From: Denitrobaculum tricleocarpae
Lineage (GTDB): Bacteria > Pseudomonadota > Alphaproteobacteria > Kiloniellales > Kiloniellaceae
Assembly: GCF_007004665.1 (NCBI RefSeq)
Contig: NZ_ML660053.1
Span: 682,001-746,000, forward strand
DNA length: 64,000 nt
Reading direction: 5' to 3'
In this document: one piece after another, positions 60,060 through 64,000 of the stretch
How positions within the stretch are numbered: position 1 is the stretch's first letter
Layout: every line of letters starts with the position of its first letter
Position numbers and translations under genes: made by a program
Notes under the pieces: generated by a model
The model's input: only the letters and a program-made list of their open reading frames with translations
Told to the model about the DNA's origin: nothing
Databases searched by the model: none

Positions 60060-60073
60060 CGTGTATATTCACG
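60060..60073. promoter_or_regulatory. MarR operator at its own start (cgtgtatattcacg)
   Basis: cgtgtatattcacg is a near-perfect palindrome (two of its 14 positions, one symmetric pair, break the symmetry) ending 2 bases before the MarR ATG at 60076. The perfect form cgtgtatatacacg stands before the RND gene at 60642, differing by one base. Autoregulation is the natural reading. Confidence 0.65.
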
Positions 60074-60075
60074 TT

Positions 60076-60537
60076 ATGAAAGCCGGTAAGCAAAAAGTCG
60101 ACATTCAGGCCGCGGCCAATGAGGCGCGGCAGATCTGCGCCTGTTTTAAGGTGCGGCAGGCTTCCCGCCTGATTACCAAGGCCTATGACGAGGCCATGCG
60201 GCCGCTCGGGCTGAAGGCGACGCAGTTTACGATGCTGACGGCGGCGGCGCTGTCCGACGGGCGCGTGTCGCTGACGGATCTGGCGGAAAAACTCGGCATG
60301 GACAGGAGCACCTTCAGCCGCAACCTGGGACCTTTGGAGCGGGAAGGGCTGGTGGAGCTCTGCGATGACGGTTTCGGCCGGGCGCGCGCGGTGCGGCTGA
60401 CGAAAGCGGGGAGGGAGCGCTACGCCGAGGCAGTGCCGCTTTGGCGCGGTGCGCAGGGTGACTTGAAAGCGGCACTGGGGGAAGAGGGGTGGACCTCCTT
60501 TCACGAACAGATGTCGACGGCGGCCAGATATGCTTGA
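60076..60537 (+). CDS. MarR-family transcriptional regulator
   Basis: 153-residue regulator starting MKAGKQKVDIQAAANEARQI; a GTG start five codons upstream is possible. The winged helix is VSLTDLAEKLGMDRSTFSRN (residues 72-91) and the wing GLVELCDDGFGRARAVRLTK. Directly upstream is a palindrome also found before the RND gene (60739), so it probably represses both. The operator overlaps its start region; no Shine-Dalgarno is visible. Confidence 0.93.
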   Translation: MKAGKQKVDIQAAANEARQICACFKVRQASRLITKAYDEAMRPLGLKATQFTMLTAAALSDGRVSLTDLAEKLGMDRSTFSRNLGPLEREGLVELCDDGFGRARAVRLTKAGRERYAEAVPLWRGAQGDLKAALGEEGWTSFHEQMSTAARYA

Positions 60538-60655: not shown

Positions 60656-60738
60656 ACGTATAATTATGTGTCGGAGGGTTTGAAGACTCCTCCGGATTCG
60701 GACGCGTTTTCACCGGCGACCATACAGGAGATCAGAAT

Positions 60739-63700
60739 ATGACCAGAGACGGCGCTGTGATGCGCAGAGAAGGCAACACTGTGGAGCGGTTCTTTCTTTT
60801 CGTTACCGCTTATCCCAAGACGGTTTTGCTCCTGTGTTTTCTCGGGATTGCGGCGGCGGGTGCGTTCCTGCCGTCTCTGAAGAAAGACACGACGCCGGAC
60901 GCCTTCATTGCCGCCGACAATCCGGCGGTGATTTACCGCGACAAGGTGAAAGAGGTCTTCGGCCTGGACGATCCTTTCGTGGTCGCGGTCGTGGATCGGG
61001 GCGAAACCGGGATTTACAACAAGGCGGCCCTGGATCTGGTCAGGGACCTTTCCGACAAGCTGGCCGGGCTGCGGAACGTCGATCCCGACCGGGTGACGAG
61101 CCTGGCTACGGAAAGCAACATCGTCGGCACCGACGAGGGGATGGAGGTCGACGATTTTTATGAACTCGGAGAAGGGGGCAGTCTGGATCCGGCGGCGCTC
61201 AAGGCCGCCATCGACAACTTTCCGCTTTACCAGGGCTCTCTGGTGGCCCGTGACGGCAGTGCGACCCTGATTGTCGCGGAGATCCTCGATCAGGACCTCA
61301 GCCAGGCAACCTACGACGAGATGCTGGCGCTGGTGGAGGCCGTGACACTGCCCGAAGGCGTCGAGGTGCATGTGGCGGGTGTCGGCGCGATCTCGGGCTT
61401 CCTCGGGACCTACATCGATAACGACGCCAAGCGCCTGAATCCTCTCACAGCCCTTGTCATTACCCTGGTGCTGGTCGTGGCCTTCCGCAGTGTTGCGGGG
61501 GCGATCCTGCCAAACCTCATCGTGATGGCCACGGCTGCTGCTGCGCTCGGGTTGATGGCGGCCTTCGGGGTGTCTTTCTTTGTGATTACCAACGGCCTGC
61601 TGCCGATCCTGATCGGCATCGCGGTCGCGGATTCGATCCATGTTTTGAGTGAGTATTACGAGCGGGCGGCGGCCCATCCCGAGGAGAGCCGCCGCGATCA
61701 CATTGTGCAGGCCATGGTCCGAATGTTCCGGCCCATTACCCTGACCACCCTGACGACCATTGCCGGTTTCATGGGGCTTTACATCGGGGCCGAGATGCCG
61801 CCGATGCAGTACTTCGGCCTCTTTGCGGCGATCGGGGTGGCCGCCGCGTGGCTCACTACCATCCTGCTGCTGCCGTCTGCCATCACCCTGATTCCGGTGA
61901 AGCCGAGCAAGGCCTTCAAACGGAGCAGAGACTCCGACCTTTACGGCCGGGTGATGACCCGCTTCGGTGCTGCCGTCCTGCGCCGGCCTGGCGTGGTGGT
62001 GACGATCGTTGCGATGATCGCGGTGGCCGGTGCCTTTGGATCCTCCAGGGTGATCGTCGAAGAGTCCCAGATCGAAAACTTCCAGCGCGACGAAGCGATT
62101 TACATCGCCGATCAGGTCATGAACCGGGTTTTCGACGGCACGAATTACATTGACGTGGTGATCGAGACGCCCAATCGGGAGGATCTCTTCAAGCCCGAGA
62201 ACCTGGCCCGGATCGAGCGGTTTCAGCGCGCCGCCGAGAGCCTGGAAGGTGTGCAGGGATCGACGTCTGTGGTCGACTACATCAAGCAGATGCACAAAGC
62301 GGTCAACGAGAACCGTCCGGAGTTCTACAGCATCCCGGACGACGACTTCCTGATCGCGCAGCTGTTCCTGCTCTATTCGACCTCGGCCAATCCGACCGAT
62401 TTCGAGGAAGAAGTGGACTACGACTATCGGCGCGCCAATGTCCGGCTCAACCTGAACAGCAGTCTCTACCGTGAAAATCGCGAGGTCATCGCAGCGCTGG
62501 AAGACACCATCGCGCGGGACTTCACGGACGACGGCATGACCGCCAATCTCTCGGGCCGGGTCTATGTCAATTTCCACTGGCTGAAGACCATCGGCGACAA
62601 CCACCTGCGCAGCCTGGGCATTTCGCTGGCCCTGGTCTGGCTGATGGCGTCGCTGGTGTTCCGCTCACCGCTCGCGGGCGCCTTCGCGCTCATTCCCGTC
62701 CTGATGTCGCTTCTGCTGATCTACGCCGTCATGGGCTTCAGTGGGATCTGGCTTGGGGTCGGGACCTCGATGTTCGCAGCCATCGCCATCGGCCTGGGGA
62801 TCGACTTTTCCATTCACACCATAGATCGCATGAAGGAGCTTGCTATGAAGGGTCAAGGATCGTTCGACACACGTATCGCACCGCTGTTTCCCTCCACCGG
62901 CCGCGCGCTGTTTTTCAACTTCGCGGCCATCGGCCTGGGCTTTATGGTCCTGACCACCAGCGAGGTGCCGCCGCTGCTGAGGTTCGGCATCCTGGTCGGC
63001 ATTGCGGTCACGGCCTCCTTCATCGCCAGCATGGCCGTGATGCCCGCCCTGGCGAAGCTGCTCAAGCCGCGCTTTATCTGGCCGGCCGGTGAGGTGGAGG
63101 GTCTGCCCGCAAGCGGCATGAAGCCTTCTGCCGTGAAAGCCGCGTTGGCCATGGCGGCCGTGACCGGTCTGTCTCTGGCGCTGCTCGGCGGTAAAGCAGA
63201 AGCCGCGGAGCTGCCGGACGGTCACGACATTATGCAGAGCGTGGTCGACCGGGACGAGGGGCAGTGGGTCACCCGGACGCTGGTCATGGAGATGACCGAC
63301 CGCAGTGGGACGACCCGGACGCGCGAGACGGCGACCTTCCGGCGCTACTACGGGGACGAGAAACGCACGGTGATGTTCTACAGATCCCCGACCAACGTGA
63401 AGGGGACGGGGTTCCTCACCTATGACTACCCGGAGGCGGACCGGGACGACGACCAGTGGCTCTACCTGCCGGCGCTGCGCAAGGTGCGCCGGATCTCGGC
63501 TTCGGACCGGGGCGATTACTTCCTGGGCACCGATCTGACCTACGAGGATATGAAAAAGGAAAACAAGGTGGCGCTGGAGGACTACAGCTTTCAGACCATC
63601 GGCCAGGAAGAGGTCGAGGGGCACATGACCTATATCGTCGAGGGCACGCCTGTCAGTCCCGAAGTCGCCAAGGAACTGGGTTACGGGAAAGTAATATGGC

Positions 63701-63942
63701 GGGTCGATCCTGAGATCTGGATTTCGCGCAAAGCGGAGATGTGGGACGTGAACGGCAATCCGTTGAAGACGCTCCGTTCGCGTGAAATCGAGGCGATCGA
63801 CGGGATCTGGACCGTGCAGGAGATTCACGTCCAGCATCACAAGACGGGGCATCAGACCCTCTTCCGCTTCAGCGACATCGACTATCAAAGTGAAATCAAA
63901 GACAAGGTCTTCAAAACCCGCAATCTGAAGCGGGGGCTGTAA
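60739..63942 (+). CDS. RND/MMPL transporter fused to a LolA-like lipoprotein-sorting domain
   Basis: 1067-residue fusion. Residues 1-790 form an RND transporter of MMPL/HpnN type: helix 1 at 21-45, periplasmic loop to about 235, helices 2-6 (ALVITLVLVVAFRSVAGAIL), second half from 419, last helices 628-790. From residue 794, MKPSAVKAALAMAAVTGLSL with AEA near 822 looks like a complete signal peptide starting with Met. Residues 823-1067 match the LolA-like (PF17131) family, e.g. VMFYRSPTNVKGTGFLTYDY and RRISASDRGDYFLGTDLTYE. The two are usually separate neighbouring genes. Likely role: moving a lipid or lipoprotein outward, under MarR control. Start: ATG 60739 after ggag. Confidence 0.93.
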   Translation: MTRDGAVMRREGNTVERFFLFVTAYPKTVLLLCFLGIAAAGAFLPSLKKDTTPDAFIAADNPAVIYRDKVKEVFGLDDPFVVAVVDRGETGIYNKAALDLVRDLSDKLAGLRNVDPDRVTSLATESNIVGTDEGMEVDDFYELGEGGSLDPAALKAAIDNFPLYQGSLVARDGSATLIVAEILDQDLSQATYDEMLALVEAVTLPEGVEVHVAGVGAISGFLGTYIDNDAKRLNPLTALVITLVLVVAFRSVAGAILPNLIVMATAAAALGLMAAFGVSFFVITNGLLPILIGIAVADSIHVLSEYYERAAAHPEESRRDHIVQAMVRMFRPITLTTLTTIAGFMGLYIGAEMPPMQYFGLFAAIGVAAAWLTTILLLPSAITLIPVKPSKAFKRSRDSDLYGRVMTRFGAAVLRRPGVVVTIVAMIAVAGAFGSSRVIVEESQIENFQRDEAIYIADQVMNRVFDGTNYIDVVIETPNREDLFKPENLARIERFQRAAESLEGVQGSTSVVDYIKQMHKAVNENRPEFYSIPDDDFLIAQLFLLYSTSANPTDFEEEVDYDYRRANVRLNLNSSLYRENREVIAALEDTIARDFTDDGMTANLSGRVYVNFHWLKTIGDNHLRSLGISLALVWLMASLVFRSPLAGAFALIPVLMSLLLIYAVMGFSGIWLGVGTSMFAAIAIGLGIDFSIHTIDRMKELAMKGQGSFDTRIAPLFPSTGRALFFNFAAIGLGFMVLTTSEVPPLLRFGILVGIAVTASFIASMAVMPALAKLLKPRFIWPAGEVEGLPASGMKPSAVKAALAMAAVTGLSLALLGGKAEAAELPDGHDIMQSVVDRDEGQWVTRTLVMEMTDRSGTTRTRETATFRRYYGDEKRTVMFYRSPTNVKGTGFLTYDYPEADRDDDQWLYLPALRKVRRISASDRGDYFLGTDLTYEDMKKENKVALEDYSFQTIGQEEVEGHMTYIVEGTPVSPEVAKELGYGKVIWRVDPEIWISRKAEMWDVNGNPLKTLRSREIEAIDGIWTVQEIHVQHHKTGHQTLFRFSDIDYQSEIKDKVFKTRNLKRGL

Positions 63943-64000
63943 GGGTGTTGCCGGAGCGCCGGTCTCTCTCGCCTTCGGTTGCGGGCCTTATAACGGCTTG

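Follow-up and report, generated by a model that had tools for sequence, protein, structure and literature searches.

A pump and a LolA-like domain in one reading frame

The DNA examined here, referred to as the window, is a 64,000-nucleotide stretch of the Denitrobaculum tricleocarpae genome (contig NZ_ML660053.1, positions 682,001 to 746,000), and near its end lies a gene in which an RND/MMPL pump, a linker resembling a signal peptide and a LolA-like domain are joined (60739..63942, + strand). A first-pass annotation made from the sequence had claimed that transporter and LolA-like part occupy one frame. This was confirmed: a single open frame of 1067 codons runs from the ATG at 60739, preceded at a distance of 8 bases by an AGGAG Shine-Dalgarno-like motif (60726..60730, +), to a stop ending at 63942, and the 1067-residue product contains both Pfam domains. 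The pump portion (residues 14-780; 60778..63078, +) matches MMPL in two stretches (PF03176; E 1.4e-39, 136.5 bits against a cut-off of 20.5), a family matched by all 37 members of our alignment A1 at E 1e-5. The same chain matches LolA_like at residues 874-1065 (PF17131; E 1e-55, 188.7 bits against a cut-off of 30), with profile positions 2-184 of 184 covered, within a domain that we place at residues 825-1067 (63211..63939, +). Proton-driven RND pumps are expected to carry invariant Asp residues, and Asp298 and Asp689 of the pump are both invariant in alignment A1. The HAE3 subfamily model TIGR00921 gives 253.5 bits; because this lies below the NCBIfam cut-off of 351.9, the pump is not assigned to HAE3 and is, as judged from its sequence, HAE3-like without formal membership.

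An AlphaFold model of the fused protein, built with 37 sequences (mean pLDDT 80.1, pTM 0.67), is of fair to good confidence for the pump and for the LolA-like sheet, and its pump part contains twelve long helices. By Foldseek, whose list also covers the LolA-like part, the pump model resembles MmpL4/5, NPC1 and HpnN (TM of target 0.80 for MmpL4). Comparison with PDB structures matched AcrB-type pumps with Z about 42, in rows that span residues 14-783 and so have little bearing on the LolA-like part. For the C-terminal domain the best solved structure is Porphyromonas gingivalis LolA3 (9tp6; rmsd 2.0, 32% identity), for which its authors, in the available part of their account, report only weak LolB binding (PMC13103446). 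The classical LolA chaperone, by comparison, takes lipoproteins over from LolCDE and delivers them to LolB. Two antisense open frames opposite the fused gene (60664-62604, -, 646 aa; 62665-63888, -, 407 aa) probably arise incidentally from the coding sequence.

Fused and split relatives

A sequencing error that removed a stop between the two parts, or homologues that are always split, had been named in the first-pass annotation as grounds for refuting the fusion, and a comparison of homologues for split versus fused forms had been proposed. Both forms were found, and neither ground for refutation held. The same uninterrupted frame is present in 5 of 57 other genomes (G002, 95% identity; G001, 82%; G057, 57%; G031, 56%; G044, 43%), which excludes a stop lost through sequencing error, and residues are conserved on both sides of the linker. 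In a further genome, G003 of the same genus, only the split form was detected. We therefore reject the sequencing-error reading, and regard the wider notion of an artefact, whether a falsely joined frame or a decayed gene, as having a negligible chance of being correct; no point in its favor was found. The nearest named relatives are from an uncultured member of the Kiloniellaceae (L073, 95%) and from Pelagibius sp. Alg239-R121 (L050, 82%).

The 52 loci recovered from the genome contig collection comprise 38 fused, 11 split and 3 incomplete forms. Besides Alpha- and Gammaproteobacteria, they come from a bin carrying the name Nitrosomonas, a Proteobacteria bin and an SAR324 bin. A wider set of 61 loci contained 41 fused genes, 17 split ones and 3 that were neither; the 41 include near-duplicates, and the 34 left under 80% identity make up our non-redundant set. 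An order-level draw around a Marinobacter relative (145 genomes of one gammaproteobacterial order) yielded matches at 1e-100 in 13 genomes, with 14 loci of which 9 were fused, one of these being the center genome, and 5 split. The corresponding class-level draw (369 genomes, 10 with a match at 1e-100) gave 11 places: 2 fused, again including the center genome, 6 split and 3 incomplete. Since this draw is mostly split, fusion is not the majority form everywhere. Among 289 genomes of the class to which the window belongs, 2 gave a match, and one of the two is the genome that the window comes from. In the family of G685 (11 genomes), a match to L116 at 1e-100 was found in G685 alone. Fusion is common in the subfamily and is not universal.

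The window's own genome also contains a split paralogue on contig C8, whose LolA-like gene has an ordinary signal peptide, as judged by eye. By the same inspection, split LolA-like genes begin with a signal peptide at the place that matches the fused linker; a stretch resembling an export signal precedes the LolA-like part in fused and split forms alike. Besides the fused gene, pairs of RND and LolA-superfamily sequences thus occur in this genome as separate genes on C8 (L041, 194000-206000), C2 (346-350k) and C4 (244-248k), and on contig C5 an RND-like match has a weak match to PF17131 next to it. In a tree inferred from the concatenated pump and carrier parts of 55 loci, built without the linker by a quick LG+G4 analysis that does not distinguish gain from loss and in which the long branches L016, L045 and L079 were flagged, at least four changes separate fused from split genes. 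The two forms alternate on the tree, which implies that they are interchangeable.

The linker and its conserved alanine

The linker (residues 781-824; 63079..63210, +) contains a basic stretch, a hydrophobic core (residues 803-815; 63145-63183) and the motif K-A-E-A near its end. From Met794 (63118-63120) it reads KPSAVKAALAMAAVTGLSLALLGGKAEA, followed beyond the apparent site by AELPD, with residue 822 as the -1 Ala. The stretch led by Met794 and ending in AEA, which had been noted as similar to a complete signal peptide, is thus borne out in its parts: basic stretch, hydrophobic core, and K-A-E-A followed by A-E-L. Across the fused alignment, hydropathy shows an extra peak in the linker, at residues 802-814, and the remaining peaks fit twelve RND spans, several of them merged or broken up. 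At least one Lys or Arg lies ahead of the hydrophobic core in 40 of the 41 fused sequences.

The sequence of the linker has diverged to the extent that many of its columns are near random, with entropies above 3 bits, yet A822 is its lowest-entropy column (Ala in 27 of 33 non-redundant sequences; 0.95 bits, where linker columns average 2.90 with an sd of 0.58). As a control on the alignment, each tail was shuffled 100 times and then realigned. The realigned Ala column stood at 28 of 34 and 0.93 bits, and the 100 tail-shuffled sets reached a maximum of 0.47 Ala and a minimum of 2.47 bits. The residue at -3 is mostly small (Ala in 15 and Val in 9 of 40). A small-x-A junction was also seen by eye in all 10 further fused sequences outside the 41, from which L120 was excluded because its linker is the same as that of L094; these 10 include the far lineages L102, L105 and L116, at 26-31% identity.

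Ala is typical at the -1 position of a signal peptidase I site, and A820 and A822, following the hydrophobic core, supply the small residues at -3 and -1 that mark substrates of this enzyme. The -1 Ala has been kept in an otherwise diverged linker, at a position that would be free to vary in an uncleaved anchor, and is therefore apparently under selection. Together with the small residue at -3, this conserved Ala ahead of the LolA-like domain suggests cleavage by signal peptidase I, and the linker sequence points to a cleavage site at which the cut would fall after A822 (63204/63205; codons of E821 and A822, 63199..63204, +), with A820 at -3.

Cleavage, tethering or internal initiation

The reading that we favor, at a probability of roughly 0.66, is that the gene encodes a pump-carrier polyprotein which is cut in the periplasm and serves a hydrophobic-compound export system resembling AmeABCD, described below. 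It builds on the single frame, its domains, the recurrent anatomy of the linker, the conserved -1 Ala and the neighboring genes, and from these we infer topology, cleavage, direction of transport and class of cargo. The RND/MMPL part would insert with 12 helices and end in the cytoplasm; the hydrophobic linker would then act as an internal export signal, an in-to-out 13th span that brings the LolA-like domain to the periplasm, where signal peptidase I would cut after A822 and free the domain as a soluble carrier. Cleavage of a single chain would thereby provide pump and carrier in a 1:1 ratio. Release of the LolA-like domain in this manner was among the options raised by the first-pass annotation, and is supported indirectly, by the conserved -1 Ala and by the signal peptides seen by eye in split relatives. 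A comparable arrangement is known in the Bradyrhizobium cytochrome b/c1 precursor FbcH, in which a membrane protein is fused to an exported domain and signal peptidase, cutting at a signal sequence inside the chain, separates the two, although FbcH belongs to a respiratory complex, unlike the transporter described here.

The linker could instead remain uncut as a 13th transmembrane helix, leaving the LolA-like domain leashed beside the pump as a built-in adaptor. We consider this rather unlikely; several observations nonetheless weigh against cleavage or suit a tether equally well. The linker segment is as hydrophobic as the transmembrane (TM) helices of the pump (median KD hydropathy of 2.13, against 2.08 for TM1, with TM7 comparable), which would fit an anchor too, and it exceeds the signal peptides of the split form (1.65; n=15, picked by hand from split loci). 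The fusion has been retained over large distances, and a tether would account for its being favored. As to the 13th helix itself, also an earlier suggestion, the topology is supported by the hydropathy peak and the preceding Lys or Arg residues, whereas the structural model gives residues 784-824 no confident shape (pLDDT < 50). The bare presence of a small-x-A motif is weak evidence, since 32 of 34 sequences have one compared with 27.4 +/- 2.0 after shuffling, and 71 of 5000 shuffles score as high; near the LolA-like domain the count is 25, against 17.2 +/- 2.6 in shuffles. In the in-to-out helices TM1 and TM3, which lie where the sequence is itself conserved, small-x-A columns are likewise highly shared (30 of 34). 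A cleavage-site matrix was also trained by expectation maximization, using 47 N-termini of the split form, but its motif slid into the hydrophobic core. It failed to tell fused junctions apart from control helices, with areas under the curve of 0.46 to 0.80 (0.66 for shuffled tails), and scored them lower than split signal peptides (0.16); it was given no weight either way. What tells against the tether is that a pure anchor needs no fixed -1 Ala with a small -3 residue, yet this is the most conserved position of the linker, and that split relatives manage without one. Motif counting was dropped as proof of cleavage: 39 of 41 sequences pass, but the interval counted takes in the end of the hydrophobic core. 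Among individual cases, L059, whose junction reads M-Q-A, passes only through an inner site; the -1 residue of L068 is Ser; and the failure of L094 comes, as judged by eye, from a core set too far upstream.

Translation might also begin internally at the ATG of Met794 (63118..63120, +), yielding a separately secreted LolA-like protein in addition to the full-length fusion, as the first-pass annotation had suggested. The resemblance of Met794 and the following KPSAVKAALAM to a complete signal peptide speaks for this, as does the retention of Met at this place in L073 (95%); in L050 (82%) the aligned residue is Leu, so that Met794 is not conserved, even if its codon there, TTG, is a potential start. 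No Shine-Dalgarno-like motif lies in the 20 bases before either the ATG of the window or the TTG of L050. When the 41 fused genes were scanned for ATG, GTG or TTG with Shine-Dalgarno-like four-mers, 28 were without an ATG in the 25 codons ahead of the core, and the other 13 had one at scattered places, accompanied in 5 of them by such a four-mer within 20 bases. Lacking a consistent place, an internal start was not accepted as a general mechanism, and for the window's gene it is poorly supported and very improbable.

Returning to the cleaved polyprotein, we think it reasonably probable that such genes form a widespread class in which one chain comprises both an RND lipid-type pump and the shuttle that serves it in the periplasm, and is cut by signal peptidase I at a conserved internal site. 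The two would then be supplied at a fixed 1:1 ratio, and the carrier could possibly be either kept tethered or set free. The class would have switched several times with a two-gene form while its parts stayed unchanged. Fused forms are already in print as domain descriptions (TOL_3187, below); for an internal cleavage site in MMPL-LolA-like fusions we found no account in the literature, as judged mostly from titles and abstracts. If the site is cut, ordinary signal peptidase would here be processing a polyprotein, a case that is, to our knowledge, rare among bacteria. For annotation it would carry a warning: a soluble product in the periplasm may arise from an "inner-membrane" protein of about 115 kDa.

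Neighboring genes and related export systems

Two bases beyond the stop of the fused gene begins a gene for a DUF1302-type outer-membrane protein (63945..64000, +; DUF1302 match E 5.8e-17), which leaves the window and encodes 447 residues (L042:5946-7289), from a GTG start according to the open reading frame (ORF) finder. A profile grown from this gene matches the ORF immediately downstream of the pump in 50 of 58 loci, and by tblastn a homologue occurs somewhere in 54 of the 58; the far lineages L102, L105 and L116 have weaker tblastn matches (6e-11 to 3e-9). Upstream lies a MarR-family regulator (60061..60537, +; Pfam), also a recurrent neighbor: matches to a MarR-type profile were found among the nearest upstream ORFs of at least 38 of 58 loci, a lower bound given short contigs and overlapping ORFs. 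Between regulator and pump, some relatives in the Gammaproteobacteria have a gene for a glutathione transferase (by Pfam in L064 and L077) or an alpha/beta hydrolase (L072 and L075), a hint that the hydrophobic cargo may be reactive or esterified; the gene at this place in L082 had no Pfam match. By eye, glutathione transferase-like genes were also noted in L067, L074 and L100, and alpha/beta hydrolase-like genes in L065 and L087.

Uncertainty over their partners in the periplasm and outer membrane has left Gram-negative HAE3/MMPL pumps poorly understood. Here the fusion plainly marks the PF17131 LolA-like protein as partner of this pump, and the next gene suggests an outer-membrane component. 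The AmeABCD system of Castellaniella defragrans, according to the accessible portion of its description, combines an HAE3-type RND pump, a LolA-superfamily periplasmic protein (DUF1329) and a DUF1302 outer-membrane protein, and its deletion reduces monoterpene tolerance (PMC6394551). The window likewise has a pump beside a DUF1302 outer-membrane gene and a LolA-superfamily part; AmeABCD differs, as far as that portion conveys, in its separate genes, its additional periplasmic protein AmeC and its other LolA-like subfamily. When the ORFs that follow the DUF1302 gene were inspected by eye, with no profile search made, no AmeC-type (COG4447) gene was recognized. By analogy with this system and the two below, hydrophobic or lipid-like compounds would be exported, brought from inner to outer membrane by a carrier in the periplasm. 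The pump would draw such a compound, hydrophobic or amphiphilic, out of the inner membrane, the groove of the LolA-like domain would ferry it across the periplasm, and the adjacent DUF1302-type protein would pass it through or into the outer membrane.

Two other systems invite comparison. Excerpts of the report on Thalassolituus oleivorans describe TOL_3187 as a fused MMPL-LolA-like protein, 42-fold up on the n-C28 alkane, with an adjoining porin-like gene (TOL_3188), and propose that the porin is what is transported (PMC6304351). TOL_3187, which we compare by that description only, thus shares the fusion of MMPL and LolA-like parts with the window's gene; those excerpts do not mention a linker, a signal peptide or cleavage. 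For the A1S_0112-0119 operon of Acinetobacter baumannii, which includes an RND transporter (A1S_0116/0117), the available passages of two reports propose that the lipopeptide or metabolite made by the operon is exported, and term A1S_0116 an RND transporter only (PMC5376624, PMC7997844). In an Acinetobacter relative (L102), as in the window, a fused MMPL and LolA_like chain is directly followed by another gene, here of 424 aa, which has no Pfam match and a weak DUF1302-type match (3e-9); sequence resembling nonribosomal peptide synthetase (NRPS) genes lies just upstream. Its chain has 26% identity to that of the window and differs in an extra N-terminal Polyketide_cyc2 domain. From the 424-aa neighbor and the context, L102 would correspond to A1S_0116. 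The annotation of L118 likewise places NRPS genes next to the Acinetobacter relative, which fits with the lipopeptide operon A1S_0112-0119. A1S_0116 has been reported, in the part of the study at hand, in outer-membrane vesicles (PMC3046175); release of the domain would be consistent with this, but the same was reported of other inner-membrane and cytosolic proteins, and the finding was not used as evidence.

In L102 (2509-6159) the Polyketide_cyc2 domain, of a lipid-binding type, stands ahead of the pump, so that three parts, a cytoplasmic binder, the pump and the carrier, make up one chain. The same NRPS-exporter stretch is present in L118 (CAKLQH020000009.1), filed as "Acinetobacter phage MD-2021a", and in L102 (NZ_CP077849.1), filed as a 3.7-Mb "plasmid"; both look like bacterial chromosome.
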